Shown here: positions 4,232-18,671 of the stretch, piece by piece
Layout: each line of letters starts with the position of its first letter
Numbering within the stretch: position 1 is the stretch's first letter
DNA from: Litorilituus sp.
Lineage (GTDB): Bacteria; Pseudomonadota; Gammaproteobacteria; Enterobacterales; Alteromonadaceae
Direction of reading: 5' to 3'
Length of the DNA stretch: 64,000 nucleotides
Assembly (NCBI GenBank): GCA_030754235.1
Contig: JASMAS010000104.1
Coordinates: 1-64,000 of the forward strand
Translations under genes and position numbers: made by a program
Notes under the pieces: model-generated
Seen by the model: the letters and a program-made list of their open reading frames with translations, nothing else
What the model was told of the DNA's origin: nothing
The model's database searches: none

Positions 4232-4924
4232 TTAAAAGTGGTATTTCACTAGTAAATTAACATTTCTCTCATCAATACCTTCAATGCCAAATTTGTTATT
4301 CCAGTGTACGTATTCAACACCAACATATAGTTTAGTATCTAAATCAAGCATAGAGGCAATATTATATTTAAATTGTGAAGTAAAATTCATTTGATTTTCA
4401 GTATCACCAAAAGCTGTGTTATTAACACCGGTCGCATAATCCATAAAACCACTAAAGTGTATTGGCCCTAGAGGAACTCCCCAAACCAAAGTTAATTGCT
4501 CACTGCTATCACCGTCTTCGTTATTACGAAGATAAGTATTTATTTGAAAATAATCAAAAACACTGATATTTAAATCAAGTCCAACACCCAACAAATAATT
4601 TGTTTTGGGTCCAAACTCTACTGATGGCGCAAAATAAACACTTTTTATAAAGCTGTCGGTAACATCTGTTATTTTAATTCTAGGGCTGAATTCACCGTAA
4701 GTTTCGACATGACCATCAGTTGACTCAAGACGATCAAAAAACATAAAAGTGTCACCCCATGTAGTCCCACTAGCATGCTCAAAAGTAAAGACATCACGAT
4801 CTTTATCACCTACTTCATAGCTACTGCCATTAAGGTAGCTTAAGCTAAAATCTGACCAAAGTGTTTTGGCTTCTAAGCCTAGGGTAGATAGACTAAATAT
4901 AATAATAAGTAAGTGCTTTAACAT
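4232..4924 (-). CDS. Tsx/OmpK-like outer-membrane nucleoside channel
   Basis: A 230-residue outer-membrane beta-barrel with a cleavable signal peptide (residues 1-19, hydrophobic LLIIIFSLSTLGL, cleavage near LEA-KT). The mature start TLWSDFSLSYLNG, the repeated W/F-rich strands and the C-terminal aromatic (KYHF) fit the Channel_Tsx family, which includes the E. coli nucleoside channel Tsx and Vibrio OmpK. It would pass nucleosides across the outer membrane. It lies 24 bases upstream of upp on the same strand and is divergent from a purine permease at 5070, which supports a nucleoside/nucleobase uptake role. An AAGG/GGAGG-rich leader is visible upstream of the ATG. Confidence 0.85.
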   Translation of the reverse strand: MLKHLLIIIFSLSTLGLEAKTLWSDFSLSYLNGSSYEVGDKDRDVFTFEHASGTTWGDTFMFFDRLESTDGHVETYGEFSPRIKITDVTDSFIKSVYFAPSVEFGPKTNYLLGVGLDLNISVFDYFQINTYLRNNEDGDSSEQLTLVWGVPLGPIHFSGFMDYATGVNNTAFGDTENQMNFTSQFKYNIASMLDLDTKLYVGVEYVHWNNKFGIEGIDERNVNLLVKYHF

Positions 4925-5069: not shown

Positions 5070-6362
5070 ATGTTAGAAAAAATATTTAAGTTAGCTGAGC
5101 ACAATACTAATATAAAAACTGAAATAATGGCTGGGTTAACGACCTTTTTAACCATGGCTTATATTATTTTTGTTAACCCTTCCATATTAGCTGATGCAGG
5201 TATGGATGAAGGCGCTGTGTTTGTTGCTACTTGTTTAGCAGCCGCAATAGGCTGTTTCATTATGGGCTTTGTTGCCAATTACCCTATAGCACTGGCTCCA
5301 GGTATGGGGTTAAACGCCTTTTTCACTTATGGTGTAGTGTTGGGCATGGGACACACATGGCAAGCAGCCTTAGGGGCAGTATTCTTATCCGGGATTATTT
5401 TTCTATTACTAAGTATATTTAAGGTAAGAGAATGGATTATTAATGCCATACCCCACACCTTAAAGCTAGGTATTGCCACAGGTATTGGCGCATTTTTAGC
5501 GATGATTGCTTTAAAAAACTCAGGCATTATTGTTGCCCACCCAGCCACTTTTGTCTCATTGGGTAAAATAACTGAATTTGTGCCATTAATGAGTATGTTC
5601 GGTTTTTTCATTATTGCGGCGTTAACAGCACGTAAAATTCCTGGAGCAGTCATGGTCAGTATTTTAATGATGACTATTGTTGGCTGGTTATTTGGTGACG
5701 TTCAATATACAGGCATTATTTCACAGCCTCCTTCAATCTCCCCTACCTTTATGCAAATGGATGTGGCAGCAGCGCTTGAGATAGGCATGTTAAGTGTTAT
5801 TTTTGCTTTCTTATTCGTTGATTTATTTGATACGTCTGGCACATTAATTGCCGTAACTCAACGCGCAGGCTTAACTGATTGTAACGGACGCGTAGAGCGC
5901 TTAGGTAAAGCACTATCAAGTGATAGTATTGCAACTCTTTCGGGCGCAACATTGGGTACATCAACCACAACCAGTTATATAGAAAGTGCTTCAGGAGTTG
6001 CCGCAGGTGGACGAACCGGGCTCACCGCTGTGACTGTGGGTGGTTTATTTCTACTGAGCATTTTCTTTGCCCCCCTAGCTGGAATGATCCCAGTTTATGC
6101 CACTACAGGTGCCATTTTTTATGTCGCCATTTTAATGTTATACAACTTAAAAGAAATAGATTGGAATGATATCACTGAAGCAGCGCCTGTAACGGTTATA
6201 TTATTATTTACCCCGTTAACATTCTCTATTGCCCATGGTATTACCCTGGCGTTTATTACTTATACGTTCACAAAAGCCACCTGTGGAAAAATACACGAAA
6301 TCAGTACCAGTGTCTGGATTTTAACGGCGTTATTTATTGCTAAAATAATCTTTGTTGGTTAA
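5070..6362 (+). CDS. NCS2-family purine/nucleobase permease (AzgA type)
   Basis: A 430-residue polytopic inner-membrane protein with about 12-14 hydrophobic segments. The N-terminal TEIMAGLTTFLTMAYIIFVNP and APGMGLNAFF segments, the DLFDTSGTLIAVTQRAG motif and the TTSYIESASGVAAGGRTGL stretch are hallmarks of AzgA-like NCS2 permeases, which import adenine, hypoxanthine or guanine with protons. Length equals the usual 430-450. It is divergent from the Tsx-like porin and upp, forming a salvage neighbourhood. Substrate among purines is not resolved from the sequence. Confidence 0.93.
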   Translation: MLEKIFKLAEHNTNIKTEIMAGLTTFLTMAYIIFVNPSILADAGMDEGAVFVATCLAAAIGCFIMGFVANYPIALAPGMGLNAFFTYGVVLGMGHTWQAALGAVFLSGIIFLLLSIFKVREWIINAIPHTLKLGIATGIGAFLAMIALKNSGIIVAHPATFVSLGKITEFVPLMSMFGFFIIAALTARKIPGAVMVSILMMTIVGWLFGDVQYTGIISQPPSISPTFMQMDVAAALEIGMLSVIFAFLFVDLFDTSGTLIAVTQRAGLTDCNGRVERLGKALSSDSIATLSGATLGTSTTTSYIESASGVAAGGRTGLTAVTVGGLFLLSIFFAPLAGMIPVYATTGAIFYVAILMLYNLKEIDWNDITEAAPVTVILLFTPLTFSIAHGITLAFITYTFTKATCGKIHEISTSVWILTALFIAKIIFVG

Positions 6363-6443: not shown

Positions 6444-6615
6444 CTTATACCAATCTCACTAACTATATGATCATTTGTACTTACTATAAACACCAACGAC
6501 ATCGTCATGTATTTACATTAATTATTAGAACAACTAGCTATTGAAATAAACGCTTTGTATTTGGTAACTTTTTCTACGTATAAAATTGATCACTAAATTA
6601 ATGAGACTGGTATTA
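6444..6615. repeat. MITE-like element with terminal inverted repeats
   Basis: The left end reads ATACCAATCTCACTAA (from about 6447) and the right end, reverse complemented, ATACCAGTCTCATTAA (14 of 16 match); weaker complementarity continues inward for about 20 more bases on each side (TGATCA near both ends). The roughly 170-base interior is AT-rich and noncoding. Related single arms occur at 31168-31184 and 43122-43140, so this is a dispersed family rather than a local terminator. Its right end supplies the stop codon of the PhoD-like gene. Confidence 0.65.
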
Positions 6616-8961
6616 AAGTTGCGTTAGTTCACCATCAGCCACTTTAAATTGGTACAAACGCACTGTAGATAAAAAACTCTCGGCATCGTTATAATAATTG
6701 TGTGTAACAGTATCCATATTATGGAACTGACTACCTGTATTATGAAAGTTAACTAGCACTTTCTCTGCATCAACTTCAACAATAACAACACCATGCTCCC
6801 ACATGCGAGCAAACACCATATCATCGCTGATATCATCACGTTTGGTTGCACTACTCACCAGTAGATCGAAGTATAAAGGTAAATCAGTTAATGCCTCAGG
6901 TACATCACCGAGTTGAGAGAATATTTGCTTCATGCCGTTTTCTAAAAATGAGCCAAAAGTAGCAGAAGAAACTGACGAGGTGGTAAAGTTAAATGATCTT
7001 TTACCCGTAACATCATTGGGTTTATGCTCAGTGACATAACTACTATGCACATCACCACCTAAGCTAATCACCCCGTATTGGCTCATCACATTATCAACAA
7101 AGCTTGACTTATATTGCGGGAAGCCATCCCATTGATCCGCCTCTAAATAAAAGCGTTGCTTCAACGCTGCGGGAACAGCATCTGAGGCTAAAACACTTTC
7201 TAATGAACTAAAACCTGTGCTGGCACGACTTGAGGATAAATCAAAAATCAGTGGTGAAAATGACACCGAGCTACCAAGCATTTTCCATGTACTGGTTGAT
7301 GTTGCAAAGGTGTGTCCTAGCCAAGTTGCTTGCCTATCATCGAAGGCTTTTTGCGCTGTACCGCCTTGTAAATTGGCAACGTATTCTCGATAGGCTGCGT
7401 AAATATCATAGCTCTCTTTGATAACAAAGTAACGACTACCAATAAAGCCAAACAAAGAGGTTTTCCCCATAGTATAAAATGCCAAACCTTGTAAAGCGCC
7501 TACTTCAGGTAAAGTAGGTAACATTTGTATAGGGTGCTCTGCGGCTAAACTCGCTTTAGCGTTGGCTAAAACTTGGTTTAAATAACTGGTGGCTAAATTA
7601 CCTTGAATAGCCGAATTTGCTCGTTGTTGCGCTTGCACCAATGCATCAGCTTGACTCAACTCTACTCGCGCTAACAACTCTTGCAGATATAAACCTGTAA
7701 ACACTTCTAAAAATGCCGCTTTGTATGGCGCAAACATTGGTTCATCAATATTCACATAAGGTGACATTTGAGAAATGATGCCATCAACTTGCGCTGGCAC
7801 CATACCACTTCCCAATAAAAAGCTGTTTAGCGTTTCTTGATCTATTTCCACGGTTGCCGGAAAGCCGTCTTCGGCTAAAATGTGATCAGGGCGATTGGTA
7901 CGAAAATCGGTCATCGCCAAATGTAAATGTTTACCAAATTGAAAATCACGATAAATACGTGTATTAGGGAATAAATGTTCCTCATTTATCGCCATTGTTC
8001 CCGCTGCTAACTCTGCTTGTGTATGAGGTTGCTCATGGTCAATAGGCATGTATTCAAAATAAGCCATTTCTGAATTTTTCTTTCGTTGCGTTTGTTGCTC
8101 ATCACCCGCCCCATCTAAGTATGTTGCAGTATCACCCCAACTATCATCAGAAAATTCATGATCATCCCAAATAGCAATCATAGGAAATCGCTCATGCACA
8201 CGTTGTAATAACTCATCTGTTCGATAAACTTTATAGAGTTGGCGATAATTGTCTAAACTATTGGCTGCCTGAGTTTTTCTGTCACCAACCCCTAAAGTCA
8301 ATGCTCCTTCCTCATCGGTAAATTCAATGTTGCGCACACCACCGTTTGACTGAAACAAAGCATCACCTGTTGTTTCATATATATAATCCCCAAGATGAAC
8401 GACAAAATCTAAATCATCATTATCAAGCAATGATAAAAAATTATTAAAAAAACGACCGATATAATCTTGGCAAGAAACATAAGCAAATTTTACATTCGTA
8501 TCACTATCTGGCGCTGCAGCAGTTTTTGTACGCCCAATTCGACTGGCATAATTTTTACCATCATATTGATAAATAAAACGGTAAAAGTAATATTGGCTAG
8601 CATCAAGATCGGTGATACGAACTTTTAAACAGTGATCCGAGCTGGCGAGCGCATCAAAAGACTCTTCAACAATTAAACGAGCAAAGCTTTCATCTGTCGC
8701 CACTTGTAGCATTAGTGCAGTATCAGCACCGGAGCTGTTATCAATACGCGTCCATAAAATAACTGAGTCTGCTTTAGGGTCTCCTGAAACAACTGACTGT
8801 GGAAAATATTGACTGCCATCTAAAATACTGGGTTCAACTGGGGCTGGGTCAACAATCTCATCTTTGTTTTTAGAGCCTCCACAACCAACAAGGCTTGAGG
8901 TCACTACAACACCAGCACTGACTGCCAAGGTTTTTATAAATTTTCGACGGGTATAAATCAT
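6613..8961 (-). CDS. PhoD-family alkaline phosphatase/phosphodiesterase, Tat lipoprotein
   Basis: A 782-residue secreted metallophosphoesterase. The N-terminus carries a twin-arginine signal (TRRKFIKTLAVSAG) followed by a lipobox-like SLVGC, predicting a Tat-exported lipoprotein. An N-terminal PhoD_N domain (about 45-140, with QSVVSGDPKADSVILWTR) precedes the PhoD catalytic domain with metal-binding motifs YVSCQDY, HLGDYIYE, IWDDHEFSDDSWG and LGGDVHSSYV. PhoD enzymes use Fe3+/Ca2+ and hydrolyse phosphomonoesters and phosphodiesters. It is longer than typical PhoD (about 550-600) through an insertion near residues 300-480. I use the second ATG (8961) because AAAGGA sits 7 bases upstream. It is 57 bases downstream of the FGGY kinase gene, probably in the same operon. 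Its stop codon lies in a repeat end. Confidence 0.9.
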   Translation of the reverse strand: MIYTRRKFIKTLAVSAGVVVTSSLVGCGGSKNKDEIVDPAPVEPSILDGSQYFPQSVVSGDPKADSVILWTRIDNSSGADTALMLQVATDESFARLIVEESFDALASSDHCLKVRITDLDASQYYFYRFIYQYDGKNYASRIGRTKTAAAPDSDTNVKFAYVSCQDYIGRFFNNFLSLLDNDDLDFVVHLGDYIYETTGDALFQSNGGVRNIEFTDEEGALTLGVGDRKTQAANSLDNYRQLYKVYRTDELLQRVHERFPMIAIWDDHEFSDDSWGDTATYLDGAGDEQQTQRKKNSEMAYFEYMPIDHEQPHTQAELAAGTMAINEEHLFPNTRIYRDFQFGKHLHLAMTDFRTNRPDHILAEDGFPATVEIDQETLNSFLLGSGMVPAQVDGIISQMSPYVNIDEPMFAPYKAAFLEVFTGLYLQELLARVELSQADALVQAQQRANSAIQGNLATSYLNQVLANAKASLAAEHPIQMLPTLPEVGALQGLAFYTMGKTSLFGFIGSRYFVIKESYDIYAAYREYVANLQGGTAQKAFDDRQATWLGHTFATSTSTWKMLGSSVSFSPLIFDLSSSRASTGFSSLESVLASDAVPAALKQRFYLEADQWDGFPQYKSSFVDNVMSQYGVISLGGDVHSSYVTEHKPNDVTGKRSFNFTTSSVSSATFGSFLENGMKQIFSQLGDVPEALTDLPLYFDLLVSSATKRDDISDDMVFARMWEHGVVIVEVDAEKVLVNFHNTGSQFHNMDTVTHNYYNDAESFLSTVRLYQFKVADGELTQL

Positions 8962-9018
8962 ATTTTGATCCTTTCTCATTATTATTTTTTGTTGTTATCA
9001 TTTCTTAGCTAACATGAG

Positions 9019-10632
9019 TTATTCTGGATAACCCGTTATTTTTTTTATTTCCTGATAAATAGGCTTTAATTGTCGGTACATTTTGCGATATACCTGTCGA
9101 TATAATTTGTTATAGAGCTGTACATTATTTTGATTAGGTAAAAATGACTGTTCAATACGAGTCATCGCAGCAATTGCTTGCTGATAATTTTCAAAATACC
9201 CCTTACCTACTGCAGCATTAATTGCCGCTCCTAAGCCCGATGTTTCAAAAGTATGTGGTCTGTGAGCAGGTAAATTAAAGATGTCGGCAGTCAGTTGTAA
9301 TGCCGCATCTGATTGTGAACCGCCGCCGGAAACAATCAAGCGTGTTATTTTGCACTTCTGTCGTTTTTCTAAGGTTTCTTTACCCTCACGCAAGGCATAA
9401 GCTAAACCTTCCAAAATAGACCGGTAGATATGAGCACGAGTATGCACATCTCCAAAACCAATAATAGCGCCTTTAGCCTCTAAATTTCTCAAGCCAGGTG
9501 ACCAATAGGGTTGTAACATTAAGCCCATCGATCCTGGAGGCACTTGTCCAACAAGCTGATCAAATAAGCTTTCAGGGCTGACGCCTAAGGCCAGAGCTTT
9601 TTCAATTTCATTTTGACCAAACTCCTGCTTAAACCAATTCACCATCCAAAAACCTCGATAAATCATCACCTCACTATTAAAGTGTTTAGGAATTGCCGAA
9701 GGATATGGAGGTATAAATGCTTGTGGTTCAACATACTTTGCATTATTTGTGTTAATGGTAGCTGTTGTTCCATAACTTAAACTGGCAGTGTCAGGGCTAA
9801 TACAACCAGAGCCCAATACTTCACAGGCTTTATCAGAGGCAGAGGCGATTAATTTAACACCTGATTTTAAACCGATTTGCTTTGCCGCTTCTGGTGTTAT
9901 TAAACCGAGCACCTCACCTGGTTTCACCAAACTGGGCAACATAGAGCGTTTAATAGGTAAAGCGTACCATTTCCAATCCCAAGGGCTTGCCCAATTTTGC
10001 TTTTTATAATCAAAAGGTAAATAGCCAACAATACTGCCAACAGAGTCTTTATATTCTCCAGTCAATTTATGGGTTAAAAAACCTGAAAGTAGTAAGAACT
10101 TATCCGTTTTTTGCCACACTGTCGGCTCGTTTTGTTGCAGCCAGTTTGCTTGTGACTTGCGGCGAAAATAATCCACAATTTTACGTTGACCAATAAGCGA
10201 AAAGGCCAATCGCCAGTACCAAGGCATAGGGTTATTTTGCTGACATAAACGCTGATCTAACCATAAAATGGCAGGACGTAGCGATTGACCATTGTCATCG
10301 ACATTGATAACAGTACCCCGTTGAGTCGTTACTGTGAGTGCTGTAACCCTTTCTCGATAGCCCTTTTTAATAACCTCATCTTGTTGCCAAAGCTGTTGAC
10401 AACATTTTGTTAACATTAGCCAGAAATATTCAGCTTTTTGCTCCGCCCAACCTGGTTTTTTTGAAAAGTAAGCTTCAAGTTCAAGACGACTTTTGGCAAC
10501 CAAGTCGCCGTTAAGGTTAAACAAAAGTGCTCGAACACTTTGTGTGCCATTGTCTATGGTTAAAATCAAATCATCCTTATTGGCTGATTGCCTCTCAGTG
10601 TTAACCAAAGTTCTCACGCTAGTTTTTTTCAT
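9019..10632 (-). CDS. FGGY-family carbohydrate kinase (glycerol kinase-like)
   Basis: A 537-residue two-lobed ATP-dependent sugar/polyol kinase. Visible motifs are the N-terminal phosphate loop (LTIDNGTQSVRALLF), the TTQRGT and ILWLDQR substrate-side segments, the SYGTTATINT motif, and the C-terminal ADP-binding LIVSGGGSQSDAALQLTADIFNLP. It resembles glycerol/ribulokinase-like members but is not canonical GlpK. The stop of the GlpD-like gene is 3 bases upstream, so the two are cotranscribed and perhaps coupled; the product of this kinase is probably the substrate of that dehydrogenase or of a related glycerol-phosphate step. The roughly 20 residues before the phosphate loop are extra relative to the family. 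Confidence 0.88.
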   Translation of the reverse strand: MKKTSVRTLVNTERQSANKDDLILTIDNGTQSVRALLFNLNGDLVAKSRLELEAYFSKKPGWAEQKAEYFWLMLTKCCQQLWQQDEVIKKGYRERVTALTVTTQRGTVINVDDNGQSLRPAILWLDQRLCQQNNPMPWYWRLAFSLIGQRKIVDYFRRKSQANWLQQNEPTVWQKTDKFLLLSGFLTHKLTGEYKDSVGSIVGYLPFDYKKQNWASPWDWKWYALPIKRSMLPSLVKPGEVLGLITPEAAKQIGLKSGVKLIASASDKACEVLGSGCISPDTASLSYGTTATINTNNAKYVEPQAFIPPYPSAIPKHFNSEVMIYRGFWMVNWFKQEFGQNEIEKALALGVSPESLFDQLVGQVPPGSMGLMLQPYWSPGLRNLEAKGAIIGFGDVHTRAHIYRSILEGLAYALREGKETLEKRQKCKITRLIVSGGGSQSDAALQLTADIFNLPAHRPHTFETSGLGAAINAAVGKGYFENYQQAIAAMTRIEQSFLPNQNNVQLYNKLYRQVYRKMYRQLKPIYQEIKKITGYPE

Positions 10633-10635
10633 ATG

Positions 10636-12393
10636 TCATCTATTTTTGTCATTGTTCGGCAAGCTATAGGCCGCATGCCAAACCTCGGTATAACGCTTTA
10701 TTTCTTGCTGCCAACGCTGTTCATCCCAGGTTAAATAAGGTGAACAAAGCTGTTTGATTTTAGGCAGTAAATCACAAGCTCCATGAGGTAAAACATTGCC
10801 AATTCTTGTTCTTCTTAATAGTAAATCATCTAAATGATGTACCTGTTCAAATTTTACTGACCAGATCAATTCACCCCAGAGATGTTTACTGTAACGTATT
10901 GGTTTGCAGTAACTTTTATCTATAAACTTAACAAAACAGTTACTATATTCACCATAACATGCTTTTATCTGTTGCTCGATATTTTCACTAAAGATAGTAG
11001 ATAAATTACCCGTTTGTATAGAGAGTATTGGTTGTTTACAAGCCATACGGACAGAAGCGAGAAAATCACCTCTGTTCTTACCAATTTTATCTGTTTTATT
11101 TTGATGGCTAGTCGTTAAATGCTGGCAAACCAAGGTAAGGACTTGCTCTGCTATCAACCTAAAAGTGGTTAGCTTTCCACCTGTGACGGAAATAACTCCA
11201 AACGCTTGCTCAATATAGTGCTCACGCTTTTCTTTCGACGGCTCAGTGAACTCACCAGATGTTATTACCGGTCTAACACCGGCAAACGTTGAGATAATAT
11301 CTTCTTTGGTAATGCTTGCATCAGGAAATTGTTGCGCTACAGCAGCAAGTAAATAGTCAAATTCTTTTTGGCTTATCCTTGCATCCTTGGTCATATCTTG
11401 TTCATGTTCAACATCTGTCGTGCCAACAATCGTAACGTTTTGCCACGGATAAACTTGTACAGGCCGTTTATCCTTAGCATGAAGAATTGACACAACACTC
11501 GCCACCGGTAAACGCCAGTTGGGGATCACTAAATGACTGCCTCGAAGTGGACGCATGTACATTGTTTTTTTAGTGTTAGCGTCGGCTGCATGACTGTCTA
11601 TGTTATTCACTTCAAGTAGTTTTGACCAAGCACCACAGGCATTTACTACAGTTTTAGCCCTAAGAGTTAAGGTTTGATTTTCCAATAACACTTCAAGCTG
11701 ATTATCTGCCCTGTGTGTTTTTACTTTCAACACTTTAGCATAATTAACTGCCTGCCCCCCTAAATGTAAAGACTCCTGAATCAAGCGCTGCACCAGCCTA
11801 GCGTCTTCGGTTAGAGCATCGAAAAACTGCGTTCCACCTAACAACTTGTCTTCTGCTACTTTGGGTGTTAATGCTAGATACGCGGGTTTAGACCAAAACT
11901 TATGCTGTTTCCTTCCTGTAATAAAGTCATAACAAGACAGTAGTTTATTGAATACCCAAGGCGTTGGAAAAGCGTATTGATAATGACTCATCACAAAACT
12001 TTGCTTTAGTATTAACGGTTGCCCCTCATCAAGTAAACGTTGTCTTTCTGTGACTGATTCTCGCGTTAAGGCTAACTGACCCTGAGCCATATAGCGCAAA
12101 CCGCCATGTACCATTTTTGACGAGCGACTTGAGCTGCCCCAAGCAAAATCTTTCTGCTCTAGCAGTAATACTTTTAGTCCTGCCTGACTCGCTAGCTTTA
12201 AAATACCCGCACCGGTAATTCCACCACCAACGACGATTAAATCCCAGTATGTTGTCTTGTTAATTTTTGCAATACGTTGCTCTCGTGTTAGTAATACATT
12301 TTCTGCTAGTTCTGTACTGTGAGCTTCTTGTAAAAAGGAATGGCTCCCTTTAGGTGCTGTTGCTTGCTGCTTCAAATTAGACATAGTATTCAC
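10636..12393 (-). CDS. FAD-dependent glycerol-3-phosphate dehydrogenase/oxidase (GlpD-like)
   Basis: A 585-residue flavoprotein of the DAO superfamily. The dinucleotide-binding loop IVVGGGITGAG (around residue 55) and the following SSSRSSKMVHGGLRYM segment are the GlpD/GlpO signature; MRPLRGSHLVIP, TIVGTTDVEHEQD and FAGVRPVI follow in the usual order, with a C-terminal DAO_C region rich in Cys and His. GlpD oxidises sn-glycerol 3-phosphate to DHAP and feeds electrons to quinone. It lies between an AGPS-like gene (17 bases upstream) and an FGGY kinase (3 bases downstream). The first 40 residues are longer than in E. coli GlpD. Whether the substrate is G3P or a substituted glycerol phosphate cannot be told. 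Confidence 0.9.
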   Translation of the reverse strand: MNTMSNLKQQATAPKGSHSFLQEAHSTELAENVLLTREQRIAKINKTTYWDLIVVGGGITGAGILKLASQAGLKVLLLEQKDFAWGSSSRSSKMVHGGLRYMAQGQLALTRESVTERQRLLDEGQPLILKQSFVMSHYQYAFPTPWVFNKLLSCYDFITGRKQHKFWSKPAYLALTPKVAEDKLLGGTQFFDALTEDARLVQRLIQESLHLGGQAVNYAKVLKVKTHRADNQLEVLLENQTLTLRAKTVVNACGAWSKLLEVNNIDSHAADANTKKTMYMRPLRGSHLVIPNWRLPVASVVSILHAKDKRPVQVYPWQNVTIVGTTDVEHEQDMTKDARISQKEFDYLLAAVAQQFPDASITKEDIISTFAGVRPVITSGEFTEPSKEKREHYIEQAFGVISVTGGKLTTFRLIAEQVLTLVCQHLTTSHQNKTDKIGKNRGDFLASVRMACKQPILSIQTGNLSTIFSENIEQQIKACYGEYSNCFVKFIDKSYCKPIRYSKHLWGELIWSVKFEQVHHLDDLLLRRTRIGNVLPHGACDLLPKIKQLCSPYLTWDEQRWQQEIKRYTEVWHAAYSLPNNDKNR

Positions 12394-12410
12394 GTAAGAT
12401 AATTCACAAC

Positions 12411-14003
12411 TTATTCCAGTAAAGTGCCGGGATTAAGTTGCTGCTGCGGATCAAAATGGGCGACTAAATTTGCTAACACCTTCATGCCAATTTCACCTTT
12501 TTCAACACTCAAATATGGCGCATGATCTTTACCTACACCGTGTTGATGACTAATGGTACCGCCATTATTTACAATGGTATCGCTAGCTAAATGTTTTAAT
12601 GTTTGCCAACGGTTTAAGGTTTCTTGATAAGAACTAGCATTACGATAAACATAGGTGGTGTATAAACTACAGCCTTGAGTGTAAACATGGGATAGATGAG
12701 TAAAGACATGGACCTTCTCTCCAATATCCTTTAAACCGTTGCGAACCTTTTCCTCTACTGCTGCCATTAAAACATCAACATTGCCCCAATCAGTCGCCGT
12801 TTCAACAGTATCAACTACGTAGCCTTGTTGCCATAAAGCGTCTCGAAGGTAGGGAGAACGAAAACGGTTAGCTTGCCACTTTTTTCCTAATAACTGGCCA
12901 GTATTTACACCATTAAACTTTTTAACCATGCTTTTTAATTGGTTTTTACTGGCCGATATTTGTTTTTTACTGCCAGTTAAACCAAAAGTGAGCATGCATT
13001 TATCTTCAACGCAGCCGCGTATCGATAAGTATCGCTCTAACCACTTAATTGAATGCTCATGACCTGCAAGTTTTAACTGCGTTTGCGTTTCAACGCCATT
13101 ACTTACTCTTAACATAGATAAAGCAATGCGCTGCTGCACAACCTCTTTACAAAAAAGACTAGCTAACTTCCAGTTTGGAAAAAAGATCACTGAAAACTGT
13201 TCGTTATCAGCAACTTTACTCACTCGCATTTTAACTTCAGTTAACACACCAAAACGCCCTTCTGATCCTAACATCACCTCACGTAAATCAGGCCCTGCAG
13301 AAGAAGCAGGAAATGTTGGTATCTCTAACGTTCCAGCAAAGGTTTCAATACTACCACCGGCAAATAACTGTTCAATACGGCCATAACGTAATGATTGTTG
13401 ACCACTTGATCTACTCGCCACCCATCCCCCTAATGTAGAAAGTTCAAAGGATTGTGGAAAATGTCCAAGCGTATAACCTCGGGCAAGCAATTGCGCTTCA
13501 ACCATAGGTCCAGGTGTTCCTGCACCAAAGGTAGCAATTTGGCTATTTTCATCAAGATGCAACAATTGGTTCATTCGACTCATATCAATGGTTAAAACCG
13601 CGCGTTGTGACTTTTTGATGTTAATATGCCCCGCAACGCTAGTGCCACCACCGTAGGGGATCAATTCAATATGATGTAATTTAGCATAAGCTAAAATATC
13701 TTGAACATCTTGGCTGTTTTCTGGAAAAGATACGCCATCCGGAAAGCAGGCTACATGACCACTTCGCATGGCTAAATAATCGGGCAAAGACTGGCCTTTT
13801 GCATGACGAACACGTTCTTCTGCATTAACGCTCACTAAGGGGTGCGCTGGTAAAAGAGATTCAGGCACCAAATTAATAACCTCTGCTAATGTAACATCTT
13901 GTGAACACCACCCTGGGCCAATTACTTGTGCTAAGAAGTCCCCAGCTGAATGTGGTAAGTCCATTGAGGTGTGTTCATCACCCCAGCCGTTCCAACGTCT
14001 CAT
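12411..14003 (-). CDS. FAD-binding oxidase related to alkyl-DHAP synthase (AGPS-like)
   Basis: A 530-residue VAO/PCMH-type flavoprotein: FAD_binding_4 domain (about 75-260) then FAD-oxidase_C. Features closer to alkyldihydroxyacetonephosphate synthase than to lactate or glycolate oxidases are the N-terminal RRWNGWGDE, the FAD motif IPYGGGTSVAG, GGWVASRSSGQQSLRYGRIE, GPDLREVMLGSEGRFGVLTE, and the His-rich ISHQHGVGKDHAPYL near the C-terminus. AGPS exchanges the acyl chain of acyl-DHAP for an alkyl group. First gene of the minus-strand operon with GlpD-like, FGGY kinase and PhoD-like products, divergent from an AraC regulator. That setting suggests glycero(ether)lipid metabolism; direction (synthesis or breakdown) is inference. 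Confidence 0.87.
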   Translation of the reverse strand: MRRWNGWGDEHTSMDLPHSAGDFLAQVIGPGWCSQDVTLAEVINLVPESLLPAHPLVSVNAEERVRHAKGQSLPDYLAMRSGHVACFPDGVSFPENSQDVQDILAYAKLHHIELIPYGGGTSVAGHINIKKSQRAVLTIDMSRMNQLLHLDENSQIATFGAGTPGPMVEAQLLARGYTLGHFPQSFELSTLGGWVASRSSGQQSLRYGRIEQLFAGGSIETFAGTLEIPTFPASSAGPDLREVMLGSEGRFGVLTEVKMRVSKVADNEQFSVIFFPNWKLASLFCKEVVQQRIALSMLRVSNGVETQTQLKLAGHEHSIKWLERYLSIRGCVEDKCMLTFGLTGSKKQISASKNQLKSMVKKFNGVNTGQLLGKKWQANRFRSPYLRDALWQQGYVVDTVETATDWGNVDVLMAAVEEKVRNGLKDIGEKVHVFTHLSHVYTQGCSLYTTYVYRNASSYQETLNRWQTLKHLASDTIVNNGGTISHQHGVGKDHAPYLSVEKGEIGMKVLANLVAHFDPQQQLNPGTLLE

Positions 14004-14054
14004 TTAACACCCCTGCTATTAATTCATTACCAGTTATGATAAAACGATGTTAAT

Positions 14055-14107
14055 CTTGACAAAATGTCTTTAAAAGACAGTCAAGGTGACAATTTGCGAC
14101 AAAAATG
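14055..14107. promoter_or_regulatory. Candidate AraC-type operator cluster between divergent genes
   Basis: In the 147-base gap between the AGPS-like gene and its divergent AraC regulator there are three same-direction half-sites of the form GACAAWWTG (14058-14066, 14088-14096 and a relaxed copy at 14098), plus nested dyads CTTGAC/GTCAAG (14055-14060 and 14080-14085) and GTCTTT-A-AAAGAC (14066-14078). AraC proteins often bind direct repeats. That the neighbouring regulator binds here is inference. Confidence 0.45.
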
Positions 14108-14150
14108 CGTACCCATTTACTGCTACAGTGACTAATAGCCCCTAAAGAGT

Positions 14151-15233
14151 ATGATAAAAAAGAACGTATCTGAATATAGACACAAAGCACGTCAACACAA
14201 AAGTACCTTAGACGAAAATTTAGGGCAAGCGTCAGTACCTGCGGTTAAGCAATATTTGCAGCTTGGCATAGAGCAAGGCCTAGATATTGACCAAATCTGT
14301 GATCAGCTAGGTCTAGTACAATCAATATTGACTGAAAATTCAAACCACATTACAGGGTTACAGTTTCAGCAATTGATCTCAGCACTTTTAGCGCATTCAA
14401 ACGATGAACTGTTTGGTTTACATACGGCAAAATACGTACAGCCTGTCTCCTATAGTGTTCTGGGTTATATCTCGATGAATTGTCAAAATTTAGGACAAGC
14501 CATTACGAAAATCTCTCCATTTGAGAGGTTGGTAGGTGATATGGGCGTCACTACCTTAACGCAACAGGGAGATCAGGTAAAAATAAGCTGGCACTGCCAA
14601 TTTACCGATTCAATCGTAAAGCGTCATATGGTAGATAACTGCTTGGCTTCATGGTTAACCTTTGCTCGCTACTTAGTTAACCAAGACTGTAATCCCAGTA
14701 AAATACTACTAACTCGTAAGTTACCTACTCTTGCTCAACAAAGTGATTACCAAGGAGTATTTAACTGTTCAATCCGTTATGGTCAAAATGACAATGCGAT
14801 AATATTTGATAAATCATTACTCGCTTTGCCGCTAAATAAAGGGGATCAGCAACTATTGTCCACTTTAGAAACTCATGCTGAAGCACTTATTTCAAAGGTG
14901 GCTAATCCCTTAAATTTTTCTGTTCAACTACCACGTATCATAGAACAATCATTGAAAAGTGGGAATTTCCATCAGCAAGAAATAGCTAAAAAGTTTTGTA
15001 TAAGCACAAAAACACTGCAGCGTAGACTAACTGCCAATGGATTAAACTTTCAAAAAGTGTTAGACGAAACACGACTAAAAGTCGCAAAACAATATCTGAG
15101 CAAAAGCGCGCTGAATTTGAGTGAAATTAGTAGTGAATTAGGCTTTAAAGAAACAAGATCATTTTATCGATGGTTTAACAAACTCACACAAAAAACCCCT
15201 GGCGAATATAGAAAAAATCAGCAAGGTAATTAG
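14151..15233 (+). CDS. AraC-family transcriptional regulator (OruR/ArgR-type sensor domain)
   Basis: A 360-residue regulator. Residues about 45-240 form an Arabinose_bd-type (PF12625) ligand domain, recognisable from the GLQFQQLISALLAHSNDELFG and SYSVLGYISMNCQNLGQAI segments; the C-terminal 90 residues are two helix-turn-helix motifs (QQEIAKKFCISTKTLQRRL and LNLSEISSELGFKETRSFYR). Members of this subfamily usually activate adjacent divergent catabolic genes in response to a small hydrophobic or amino-acid-like ligand. It is divergent from the AGPS-like/GlpD-like/FGGY/PhoD operon and probably controls it. The gene ends 121 bases before the convergent isc operon 3' end. Confidence 0.9.
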   Translation: MIKKNVSEYRHKARQHKSTLDENLGQASVPAVKQYLQLGIEQGLDIDQICDQLGLVQSILTENSNHITGLQFQQLISALLAHSNDELFGLHTAKYVQPVSYSVLGYISMNCQNLGQAITKISPFERLVGDMGVTTLTQQGDQVKISWHCQFTDSIVKRHMVDNCLASWLTFARYLVNQDCNPSKILLTRKLPTLAQQSDYQGVFNCSIRYGQNDNAIIFDKSLLALPLNKGDQQLLSTLETHAEALISKVANPLNFSVQLPRIIEQSLKSGNFHQQEIAKKFCISTKTLQRRLTANGLNFQKVLDETRLKVAKQYLSKSALNLSEISSELGFKETRSFYRWFNKLTQKTPGEYRKNQQGN

Positions 15234-15354: not shown

Positions 15355-15693
15355 TTAGTGATTCTCTGAGACTATATTGACCGTATATTTAGGAATTTCT
15401 ACCACAAGATCTTCATCTTCAACAATAGCCTGACAACCTAAGCGTGATTCTGGTTCTAAGCCCCATGCTTTATCAAGCATGTCATCTTCTAGCTCGTCAC
15501 CTTCTTCTATGGAGTCGAGGCCTTCACGAATAATGACATGGCATGTAGTACAAGCACAGACTTTTTCACAGGCATGCTCGATGCTAATATCGTTTTTTAG
15601 CGCTACATTGAGTACACTTTCGCCTTTTTCGGCGTCAACTACCGCACCGTCTGGGCATAATTCTTCATTGGGTAAAAAGATAATTTTTGGCAT
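15355..15693 (-). CDS. fdx: ISC-type [2Fe-2S] ferredoxin
   Basis: A 112-residue adrenodoxin-type ferredoxin that donates electrons during Fe-S cluster assembly on IscU/IscS. Cluster ligands are visible as Cys42, Cys48, Cys51 and Cys87 (motif CEKVCACTTC ... RLGC); Cys46 is the extra conserved cysteine of isc ferredoxins. Length matches E. coli Fdx (111). It follows hscA by 53 bases and is the last gene of the operon, before a strong terminator. Confidence 0.97.
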   Translation of the reverse strand: MPKIIFLPNEELCPDGAVVDAEKGESVLNVALKNDISIEHACEKVCACTTCHVIIREGLDSIEEGDELEDDMLDKAWGLEPESRLGCQAIVEDEDLVVEIPKYTVNIVSENH

Positions 15694-15746
15694 TATACTG
15701 TCTCTTAAAATTGATGACTTTTGCGACTATTTCGTAACAGGGTAAT

Positions 15747-17609
15747 CTATAACTTGTCCACTGACTGACCGCTCAGCGCTTTACTGATTGAACTATCCAT
15801 TCTACGCTCTGCAAATATTTCGGTTGCTTTATCTAAGCGTTTAATGGCAGCCTCAATAGCATCAGCATCTTCAGATTGGCTTCTATCCGCCAAAAATTTA
15901 ATCGCTTGCTCAATATTACTGACTTCATCGACAACTAACAAATGACTATCTTGTAACATTGCAGCTTGTATTGACTCAATGACACGTGCCGCTTCAACTT
16001 GCTGCTCTTTTAGCATACGTGCATCAATATCAGCTTTAGCATGACTCATAGAGTCTTTAAGCATGGTGGCTATTTTGCCATCATCTAAACCAAATGAAGG
16101 TTTGACTTCAATACTCGATTCAACACCTGTTGATTTCTCCATCGCGGATACCGAGAGTAAGCCATCGGCATCAACTTTAAAAGTAACACGAATATGGGCA
16201 GCTCCCGCAGTCATAGCAGGAATACCACGCAGTTCAAAACGCGCTAATGAGCGGCAATGATCAACTAATTCACGCTCCCCTTGCAGTACGTGTACCGCCA
16301 TTGCGGTTTGACCATCTTTAAAGGTGGTAAATTCTTGAGCTTTAGCAACGGGGATCGTGGTATTACGTGGGATCACTTTTTCGACCAAGCCACCCATAGT
16401 TTCTAAACCAAGTGATAATGGAGTAACATCAAGTAACAGCATTTCGCTATCAGGCTTGTTGCCTGCAAGAATATCTGCTTGAATCGCAGCGCCAATAGCA
16501 ACGACTTTATCAGGATCAATGGAAGTTAATGGCTTTTGATTAAAGAACGTTTCTACCTCACTACGCACCAATGGAACACGAGTAGATCCACCAACCATCA
16601 CTACTTCAATAACCTCTTGTGCGGTGATACCGGCATCTTTTAGACTTCGACGACAAGCACGTAACGTTTTTTTCACTAGACTAGCAACTAAGCAATCAAA
16701 GGTTTCTTTAGTTAAGTTGATGGTATGCTGCTGTTGATTATCTAATGCTAGCTCTATCTCAACGCTAGCTTGTGTCGTTAATTGCTCTTTTGCATAACAC
16801 CCTTGCTGCATTAGTTGGCGCTCTAGTGATGGTGAAATAGGGCGAGATAAGCCGACTTGATCGGCCAAGTACTCGGCCACCGCCACATCAAAGTCATCAC
16901 CACCTAATGCTGCATCTCCGCCCGTAGCCAGCACTTCAAAAACGCCTCGATTAAGGCGCAATATTGAAATATCAAAAGTGCCACCACCTAAATCATAAAT
17001 AGCGATCACGCCTTCTTGACCGGAATCAAGACCATAAGCTACCGCTGCTGCGGTGGGCTCATTTAATAAACGTAAAACGTTAACTCCAGCTAATTTTGCT
17101 GCATCTTTTGTACTTTGTCGTTGAGCATCATCAAAATGGGCAGGTACCGTCACAACCACACCAGTCAAATCACCACCAAGCGCTTTTTCTGCTCGTTGAT
17201 TTAAGTTTTTTAAAATTTCAGCAGAGACTTCTACAGGATTAATTTTACCTTGGCGGGTAAGAATTTCAGGGTAATTTTCACCACCACAAAACTGATATGG
17301 TAAAGACGGATATTTACTTTGTATATCACTAAGCGAACGGCCAATTAAACGCTTAGCAGAAACAATCGTGTTTGAGGCATCACTCACACTTAAACTTTTT
17401 GCAGCCTCCCCAACTAATATGCTATCTTCTTGATAACTAACAATTGATGGTAAAATATCACCACCTTGGTGATCAGACAATGTACTTGCAGTGCCACTTT
17501 GCACACTGGCAATGAGTGAATTAGTGGTACCTAAATCGATACCAGCAGCTAATCTATGCTCGTGAGGTACTGTACTTTGACCCGGTTCTGCTATTTGTAA
17601 TAGTGCCAT
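15747..17609 (-). CDS. hscA: Fe-S assembly chaperone HscA (Hsp70 family)
   Basis: A 620-residue specialised Hsp70 ATPase that, with HscB, releases clusters from IscU. N-terminal nucleotide-binding domain: [12 protein letters not shown] (about 22-33), [24 protein letters not shown]; then the substrate-binding domain with [17 protein letters not shown] and a C-terminal helical lid. Length matches E. coli HscA (616). It is encoded 56 bases after hscB and before fdx, the standard isc order. Confidence 0.97.
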
Positions 17610-17665
17610 GTTTTAATGTGTTTTCTGTTTGCTTAAATTAAGGAATAAAGGTAGAAGCTTGTATA

Positions 17666-18193
17666 TTAATCGTCGAATAAACTCTCTTCAAGACGTTCTA
17701 CTTCAATATTAAGTTTATGGTAAAACGTTAACTTGCGAAGGTTTTCAGATGCTTTTGCATTTTCATCAGCGTTGTTTGCATTAATTTGTGCCCTCATTTG
17801 CTCAAAGTGCACTTGATATTCTTGTGTTAACACTTTTTGTGCATCAGCTAATGCGCTGTCAATATCATCGGAAAATCTTATTTCTGCTAACCTTTCTCTT
17901 AGCTCCATTTGGCGCATTAAAAAGCTGTTGTCGCTAAAAGATTGTTGCTCATCAGGTAGCACAACACCGCGCAACGTTAATAAATATTTTGCCCGTTCAA
18001 GTGGCTGTTTCAAGGTTTGATAGCCATCATTTATTTGCGCAGACTTTTGCACTGCTAATAATTGTTCCTGAGCAGAAGCATGGGCAAACTTGTCAGGATG
18101 AACAGCTTTTTGCAAGGTTTGATAAGTTTGTGATAATTGACTTAAATCGACATCAAAAGACAGCTCAATACCGAATAATTGAAAGTAATTCAA
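17666..18193 (-). CDS. hscB: Fe-S assembly co-chaperone HscB (J-domain)
   Basis: A 175-residue co-chaperone with an N-terminal J domain (residues 1-75; HPD motif in AVHPDKFAHAS) and a C-terminal three-helix domain that binds IscU. It stimulates HscA ATPase. Length matches the family (171 in E. coli). The gap to iscA upstream is unusually wide (154 bases) for this operon and holds no obvious gene. Confidence 0.97.
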   Translation of the reverse strand: MNYFQLFGIELSFDVDLSQLSQTYQTLQKAVHPDKFAHASAQEQLLAVQKSAQINDGYQTLKQPLERAKYLLTLRGVVLPDEQQSFSDNSFLMRQMELRERLAEIRFSDDIDSALADAQKVLTQEYQVHFEQMRAQINANNADENAKASENLRKLTFYHKLNIEVERLEESLFDD

Positions 18194-18347
18194 AATAGTT
18201 TTTGCTCTAAAAGGTTAAAAATAACGTTAAGACATGTTCTGTTTTGCTCAAAGTTATTTTCTTCTGATATAAGTCCAAAGCACGGCGCTACGCTAGTAGG
18301 TACCTTTAACGCCGCGACTAATAAACAAACACAGAGAAAATAAAAAA

Positions 18348-18671
18348 TTATACGTTGAACGATTCACCACACCCGCATTCACCTTTAGCGTTAGGGTTAA
18401 TGAATTTAAAACCTTCGTTTAAACCTTCTTTAACAAAATCTAACTCTATACCATCAAGGTAAACTAAACTTTTGGTATCAATGATTATTTTAACATCTTC
18501 GATATCAAAGACATTATCACCTTCATTCAAATCATCAACAAATTCAAGAACATAAGCCAAACCTGAGCAACCAGTTGTTTTTATCCCTAATCGTAAACCA
18601 AGACCCTTACCTCGGTTTGTCATAAAAGATTTAACTCGCTCTGTTGCCGCTGGCGTCATGGTAACTGACAT
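18348..18671 (-). CDS. iscA: A-type Fe-S carrier IscA
   Basis: A 107-residue A-type carrier that transfers iron or Fe-S clusters to apo-proteins. The three conserved cysteines are in TTGCSGLAY and GECGCGESF. It lies 35 bases after iscU and in the usual isc order. Confidence 0.97.

Follow-up and report, generated by a model that had tools for sequence, protein, structure and literature searches.

A conserved AGPS-GlpD-kinase operon as a candidate module for alkyl glycerolipid breakdown

What does a flavoprotein resembling alkylglycerone phosphate synthase (AGPS) do in an operon with a GlpD-like glycerol-3-phosphate (G3P) dehydrogenase, an FGGY kinase and a PhoD-family phosphoesterase? The question is raised by a 64,000-nucleotide stretch of DNA from Litorilituus sp. 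(assembly GCA_030754235.1, contig JASMAS010000104.1; “the window” means this whole stretch), in which an original prediction had seen a four-gene operon for the utilisation of glycerol ethers or glycerophospholipids, divergent from an AraC-family regulator. We find that the first three genes form a triad conserved in many genomes; that its AGPS keeps the catalytic residues of the family and falls in a separate clade with a signature of its own; and that PhoD shares an operator with the triad in three relatives in which the two are unlinked. Triad, regulator and PhoD very probably make up one glycerolipid-breakdown module; that this is a regulated system for 1-O-alkyl glycerolipids in particular has, judging from sequence, about an even chance. 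Because the triad and its divergent AraC gene have already been published as the GliR cluster of Pseudomonas aeruginosa, what is new is the proposed function and the AGPS subfamily, not the existence of the operon.

The triad is conserved across genomes

A scan of genome contigs confirmed at least 586 relatives, of which the best 80 were fetched; these are mostly Pseudomonas and Marinobacter, plus Hahella, Thalassotalea and others, so that close relatives dominate the counts of triad order and residues given below. We examined 104 loci, 93 of which combined an AGPS of at least 35% identity with 4 kb of downstream sequence (six ended too early, and in five the AGPS fell below 35%). AGPS, GlpD and FGGY followed one another in this order on one strand in 91 of these 93, an arrangement far beyond chance; the genes that the original prediction had joined are found together elsewhere, and not only apart. 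The two incomplete triads (L041 and L143) have GlpD with no kinase adjoining. A divergent AraC gene was present in 71 of the 95 loci with room for it.

An evenly drawn class sample of 369 genomes held 12 with an AGPS match at 1e-40; triad-class AGPS occurred in nine genomes, and the full triad in seven of the eight with room, the window included. AGPS matches in the phylum sample came from 16 of 398 genomes, all of them the window's own genome, its family or its class, in a listing that does not give the share of other classes among the 398. In one genome of the same genus (G009; locus L043, 8705-14807) AGPS, GlpD, FGGY and part of the regulator are all fragmented, a joint decay as expected if they have one common function. 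In another locus (L141:11824-12966) an otherwise intact triad is interrupted between GlpD and FGGY by an opposite-strand gene that seems to encode an ATP-binding motif. We considered flanking genes as pathway members and rejected them: the Pseudomonas flanks scanned hold CheW/response regulator genes, MOSC, one unmatched protein and YegS, those of Marinobacter type II secretion genes, and of all these only YegS fits lipid metabolism.

Within the window all five open reading frames (ORFs) are present in the ORF list, four on the minus strand and the regulator on the plus strand, with the order and Pfam domains that had been described (Table 1). The gaps of 17 bases (AGPS-GlpD) and 3 bases (GlpD-FGGY) are as predicted; the third, FGGY-PhoD, is 39 bases from the first PhoD ATG and the predicted 57 bases from the ATG at 8961. 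The latter is the probable start: its ribosome-binding site (AAAGGATC) is the better one, and it opens directly at the twin-arginine translocation (Tat) motif MIYTRRKFIK.

Table 1. Features of the operon and its promoter region in the window
Feature	Position	Strand	Evidence
AGPS-like FAD enzyme	12411..14003	-	ORF; Pfam FAD_binding_4 and FAD-oxidase_C; PDB match; fold match
GlpD-like FAD glycerol-3-phosphate dehydrogenase	10636..12393	-	GTG start; Pfam DAO and DAO_C
FGGY kinase	9019..10632	-	Pfam FGGY_N/C; below curated cut-offs of GlpK and XylB
PhoD-family phosphoesterase	6613..8979	-	Pfam PhoD and PhoD_N; probable start 8961
AraC-family regulator, GliR-like	14151..15233	+	Pfam Arabinose_bd and HTH_18; NF050186
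Candidate operator TGTCGCAAATTGTCA	14087..14101	-	fits TGTCNNAAATNNTCA element of relatives' AGPS and PhoD promoters
Palindromic element TGTCTTTTAAAGACATTT	14062..14079	-	best match per genome just upstream of AGPS in 9/9 genomes searched
Block CGTTTTATCATAACT, with GTTTTATCATAA invariant within it	14032..14046	-	alignment of 6 relatives (6/6)

The window genome is a 3.33-Mb draft in 112 contigs. Beyond PhoD lie ORFs with matches to DUF5020 (4232-4924) and to a permease family (5070-6362); beside the regulator, at 15355-18671, ferredoxin-, Hsp70-, J-domain- and A-type-scaffold-like ORFs, recognised by eye from sequence, look like part of an ordinary isc cluster.

The triad enzymes and their proposed reactions

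Both sequence and predicted fold bear out the assignment of the first gene to AGPS. Its best PDB sequence match is Dictyostelium AGPS (2uuu, 3.8e-74; phmmer), with which it shares a WNGWGD N-terminal motif, and in the 50 rows listed by Foldseek the first 37 are AGPS chains (TM score by query 0.71-0.87), followed by D-lactate dehydrogenases. In the model (pLDDT 82.9, lower around some active-site loops) the AGPS fold is predicted to span the whole length of the protein, whose identity to animal AGPS is low (24-26%). Since sequence and fold matches rank AGPS first, we rejected a D-2-hydroxyacid dehydrogenase, although the best NCBIfam names point to glycolate oxidase.

R352, R447 and Y508 are catalytically important in the Dictyostelium enzyme, according to the available part of the report (PMC3509576). 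By the 2uuu alignment and an inferred three-residue numbering offset, these correspond to R299, R387 and Y448 in the window protein, and their equivalents are kept in all 100 AGPS with a GlpD gene in the locus (the window not counted; 96 of these also show the kinase). Two other positions have changed: the window protein has Q184 at the site of animal Asp303 and Q487 at that of His616 (guinea-pig numbering), and glutamine is found at the first in 100/100 and at the second in 99/100 (HHH to HQH) of the same set, as well as at both in four copies at contig edges. At these two positions, which may not strictly define the family and for which the literature consulted gave no role, the protein departs from animal AGPS.

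A tree of 39 proteins, which contains several long branches, places triad AGPS in one group (100/97), apart from synthesis-type and solitary AGPS; the nearest relatives of the window protein among the named rows are Colwelliaceae. The synthesis-type proteins (L145-L148), 28-32% identical to the window AGPS, have aspartate and HHH in 4/4 and glutamine in 0/4, and each of their loci has an acyltransferase match, which in L148 lies inside the long AGPS frame; L145 also has a short-chain dehydrogenase/reductase (SDR), and L146 and L147 reductase-like (Male sterility/epimerase) domains. These loci are gammaproteobacterial and are candidate ether-lipid producers in this class. Three genomes pair a triad-class AGPS with another class: the second copy is of the synthesis type in G172 (L146), and of a third, solitary kind in G406 and G585 (L149 and L195), with no triad seen beside either; the triad-class AGPS of G406 ends at a contig edge and was assigned by its residue signature.

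These genomic contexts bear on the direction of the pathway. Kinase and GlpD-like enzyme might instead supply dihydroxyacetone phosphate (DHAP) for ether-lipid synthesis, with an unlinked acyltransferase making acyl-DHAP and the AGPS-like enzyme alkyl-DHAP; this is the published proposal, with unlinked acyltransferase candidates (PMC8151288, in the part available), and the conservation of the AGPS family and its catalytic residues counts in its favour. Of the 98 triad loci put to the queries that found an acyltransferase in all four synthesis-type loci, however, a single one (L097) gave an acyltransferase match, at several kb from AGPS, and two (L139, L140) gave weak reductase-like matches, so that apart from these matches the window and the triad loci have no GNPAT-like acyltransferase and no FAR or other reductase beside AGPS. 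Synthesis needs a reductase, the reverse of GlpD oxidation, as the accessible part of PMC9131029 states; GlpD runs toward DHAP and not toward alkyl-G3P, which counts for breakdown, and glycolysis already provides DHAP. A separate synthesis-type enzyme exists in G172 besides the triad, and a co-regulated phospholipase C or PhoD suits breakdown: the activation of a phospholipase C gene together with the triad by GliR in P. aeruginosa counts in the same direction. We consider synthesis unlikely.

The two partner enzymes belong to well-known families and depart from their canonical members to different degrees. The GlpD-like enzyme scores 266 bits against NF008899, short of the cut-off of 360, and retains as R100, Y101, H287, R374, R390 and K407 all six of what we take to be the G3P-site residues of E. 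coli GlpD (R54, Y55, H233, R317, R332, K354); the six positions are kept in 98/98 orthologues. The kinase reaches 161 bits against the GlpK model (cut-off 590) and is nearest XylB by profile score, yet below the XylB cut-off. Its R105 and D267 are kept, as Arg and Asp in 95/95 orthologues, and it has G106 and K268 in place of Glu84 and Gln246, presumably among the glycerol contacts of GlpK (E. coli numbering); orthologues have Gly or Ala at the first site in 90/95 and Lys at the second in 94/95. These residues would fit a larger or different substrate than glycerol, without naming it.

A more general salvage of phospholipids and glycerol, in which PhoD, often a phosphate-scavenging enzyme, frees phosphate or glycerophosphates, kinase and GlpD-like enzyme form a second glycerol pathway and the AGPS-like protein is an accessory, draws on the intact G3P site and on what else the genomes encode. 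Among 13 triad-class genomes tested, five have neither GlpK nor GlpD over the curated cut-off (G036, G003, G030, G006 and G049, of which G030 is only 76% complete and G049 has another GlpD-like match of 289 bits), and two, the window's and G428, have a canonical GlpK and no other GlpD-family match; likewise, according to the available part of the GliR study, its strains outside Pseudomonas lack homologues of glpD and glpK (PMC8151288). The remaining six have canonical GlpK and GlpD over cut-offs besides the triad, and because the canonical enzymes coexist with it in these genomes, the triad is not simply a glycerol pathway. Salvage leaves a well-conserved AGPS unexplained, the kinase lacks two glycerol contacts of GlpK, and the P. 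aeruginosa triad mutant was normal on glycerol, though glpK and glpD were retained (PMC8151288, part available); we regard it as improbable.

Another 1-substituted glycerol or glycerol phosphate (short alkyl, glycosyl, vinyl ether or acyl-DHAP-like), on which the AGPS-like enzyme would use its FAD-N5 chemistry, is likewise doubtful. The two altered positions and the distance from animal AGPS allow another leaving group, and the kinase, nearest XylB by profile score, also counts in favour of such a substrate; the whole-length AGPS fold and the phospholipase C in the P. aeruginosa regulon favour lipids.

For the breakdown of alkyl glycerolipids we propose the following scheme, in which the substrate, its uptake, the direction, the individual reactions and the ligand of the regulator are all inferred. 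Outside the cytoplasm, PhoD, as a Tat-exported lipoprotein, would help to free (lyso)alkyl phospholipids of their head group or phosphate, leaving 1-O-alkylglycerol, a role perhaps taken in P. aeruginosa by the GliR-activated phospholipase C PA3464. In the cell the kinase would phosphorylate 1-O-alkylglycerol at sn-3, and the GlpD-like flavin dehydrogenase would oxidise C2 to give 1-O-alkyl-DHAP, making the C1 proton acidic; AGPS chemistry needs this C2 ketone, so GlpD, in its oxidative direction, fits as the supplier. The AGPS-like enzyme would then act on alkyl-DHAP: the tyrosine takes the C1 proton, C1 is bound to FAD N5 and the oxygen substituent leaves, a fatty alcohol departing and water or a carboxylate entering to yield DHAP (or acyl-DHAP). 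The AraC regulator would switch on triad and PhoD together. This scheme, the animal ether-lipid pathway in reverse, is the simplest chemistry that would use all the parts.

PhoD, the regulator and shared promoter elements

The PhoD protein exceeds the Pfam cut-offs for PhoD (195 bits) and PhoD_N (80 bits) and falls short of the NCBIfam PhoD equivalog (150 of 1000); its nearest solved chain is 9uya (1.5e-40), and a Tat motif and lipobox can be read from its sequence. It follows the triad in the window and in six further loci (L034, L057, L058, L059, L065 and L196). Across 295 genomes of the family (E up to 1e-100 for PhoD orthologues, up to 1e-60 for AGPS), PhoD was present in 17 of 24 genomes with AGPS versus 2 of 271 without; these genomes share ancestry, which Fisher's test ignores, and in 15 of the 17 with both the two genes lie within 8 kb on one contig, so that the co-occurrence mostly reflects linkage and is weak alone. 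Within the genus the figures are 5 of 7 with AGPS (G009, with its broken AGPS, counted) and 0 of 30 without; two members without AGPS, G011 and G014, have distant PhoD homologues (36-39%).

More telling are three of the five genus genomes (G003, G006 and G008), in which PhoD lies elsewhere in the assembly than the triad. An 18-base element is common to the two promoters, AGPS and PhoD, of each of these genomes, with 17, 17 and 18 positions matching, a score that random windows from the same loci never reached (0/59, 0/60, 0/59); the comparison of unlinked PhoD genes covered these three and not G807 and G848, where PhoD is on another contig. Searching whole assemblies, we found exact copies of TGTCCTAAATTATCAAT only before AGPS and before PhoD, two in G003 and two in G008, and one copy each in G030 and G009, before AGPS; in G006 both promoters carry it at two mismatches. 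The original prediction had made PhoD a full member of the operon. Its co-regulation in relatives indicates that PhoD belongs with the triad; the conserved core, by contrast, is the triad, with which PhoD occurs only in part of this bacterial family.

In G006, the best copy of TGTCCTAAATTATCAAT (one mismatch) precedes a gene that shares 74-82% identity with the regulator found in the other three genomes, and this operator-like site suggests autoregulation of a regulator that has moved (G006:C175:9622, L240, an AraC-regulator orthologue away from the triad). A wider regulon was sought by operator search and rejected, sites beyond triad, PhoD and the moved regulator being judged background: reversed-pattern controls gave 0-3 matches per genome and strand for TGTCCTAAATTATCAAT and 0-4 for TGTCTTTTWARGACATTT; G006 has nine TGTCCTAAATTATCAAT sites at two or fewer mismatches versus two in the control, six of them outside triad, PhoD and regulator, of which two were inspected (L245, L250); and the one-mismatch site of G009 (L242) lies within a gene. 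The window genome totals four sites at two or fewer mismatches, as many as its control (4), and of these it is the exact one before AGPS that is distinctive.

For the window itself, TGTCGCAAATTGTCA, of pattern TGTCNNAAATNNTCA, occurs once in 64 kb, with 0.12 expected and 12 of 100 shuffles also having one. TGTCTTTTWARGACATTT, a palindrome found in the closest relatives of the window and derived as a pattern from four of the nine genomes searched, has its best match before AGPS in 9/9 (exact in eight, one mismatch in G847). The block CGTTTTATCATAACT is a possible -10 region of the triad promoter. The regulator matches GliR best among NCBIfam models (NF050186, 361 bits, cut-off 570), as a relative and not an equivalog.

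The proposed alkyl glycerolipid breakdown and known systems

Several observations weigh against alkyl glycerolipid breakdown. In the loci scanned the triad has neither a fatty-alcohol dehydrogenase nor a transporter as a conserved neighbour, an iron-containing alcohol dehydrogenase (L076; L083 by sequence), a GMC oxidoreductase (L059) and SDRs (L039) being only sporadic near it. With Asp/His changed to Gln/Gln, the reaction itself could be another and not a reversed one; L144, a triad AGPS, still has His at the His616 site, and the solitary L149 and L195 have Gln at the Asp303 site, with motif HHHA, and no triad. At the site equivalent to Tyr135 of GlpK, only 46/95 kinases have Tyr. No PhoD orthologue was found in 7 of the 24 family genomes with AGPS, and the shared operator comes from G003, G006 and G008, whose regulators, like that of G030, are about 24% identical to the window's. 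In P. aeruginosa, deletion of PA3026-PA3024 or PA3027 gave no growth phenotype in rich medium, on citrate, on glycerol or on the Biolog plates used, and GliR activated its target in E. coli without added ligand (PMC8151288); the part of that paper available does not mention growth of the mutants on alkylglycerols. No other GlpD-family match was found in the window genome outside the operon (NF008899, E up to 0.001), so ordinary G3P oxidation is possible for the operon's enzyme, which may serve both the alkyl route and plain G3P.

The catabolic reading of the original prediction has come through the sequence tests, with a substrate that is inferred and a published suggestion that points to synthesis. 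In its full form, a bacterial degradation of alkyl ether lipids that depends on flavin and not on O2 or pterin, with AGPS chemistry run backwards or hydrolytically by a dedicated Gln/Gln subfamily and an exported phosphoesterase coupled through an operator, we would place it a little short of an even chance. If true, bacteria would possess a route that leads from alkylglycerol to DHAP and supplies a missing piece in the recycling of ether lipids of marine-animal and host-tissue origin; the GliR regulon of P. aeruginosa would have a concrete inducer and substrate to try, and this AGPS subfamily would mark eaters and not makers of ether lipids. In the part of it available, a 2025 survey reads ether-lipid synthesis from the presence of M. 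xanthus Agps homologues with an identity of at least 30% (PMC11868695). Given the 28-32% identity of the window AGPS to L145-L148 (the M. xanthus protein itself was not compared), the triad class could be miscounted there; the two-residue signature and GlpD/FGGY neighbourhood would separate the classes.

The closest known system is the GliR cluster, published in 2021 (PMC8151288, cited here from the part available): GliR (PA3027) activates the divergent operon PA3026-PA3024, encoding an FAD oxidoreductase, a GlpD homologue and a carbohydrate kinase, and also PA3023 (YegS kinase), PA3464 (phospholipase C) and PA3342, and the authors, who reported the arrangement for twelve genomes out of 1748, four having the full gene set and a further eight PA3027-PA3024, suggested synthesis from glycerol to alkylglycerone phosphate. 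We found no other paper on PA3026 and PA3025 together in the open-licence PMC literature, nor, by title among the papers listed, any bacterial pathway of alkylglycerol use. Triad order and the divergent AraC/Arabinose_bd regulator are the same as in the window, and in P. aeruginosa the triad promoter is directly activated and the phospholipase co-regulated; the regulator of the window shares 37-42% identity with the divergent ones of Pseudomonas relatives. The two differ in that a YegS lipid kinase follows the Pseudomonas triad and its hydrolase is an unlinked phospholipase C, whereas the window has PhoD in the operon, and in the published direction, synthesis. A mycobacterial AGPS-like protein, Rv2251, which we take to lie beside glpD1, was a further lead; it was dropped, with nothing on its function found by title.

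Other systems share single features. Animal and Dictyostelium AGPS have the same full-length fold and share the catalytic Tyr and two Arg; in the animal enzyme Asp303 and His616 stand in place of the two glutamines, and acyltransferase and reductase are the partners instead of kinase and GlpD. The M. xanthus ether-lipid operon MXAN_1676-1674 contains a bacterial AGPS with FAR/GNPAT-like and NAD-epimerase proteins (PMC9131029, part available); the likeness to it seen in L146 and L147 is absent from the triad. The canonical GlpK-GlpD pathway uses the same two enzyme families, likely with the same chemistry at sn-3 and C2, and differs in that the operon copies fall below its curated cut-offs. Alkylglycerol monooxygenase (AGMO) achieves the outcome proposed for the triad, cleavage of the alkyl ether bond of alkylglycerols, as a membrane enzyme that uses O2 and tetrahydrobiopterin and releases an aldehyde (PMC3617469); the route proposed here would need neither for cleavage and would release an alcohol.

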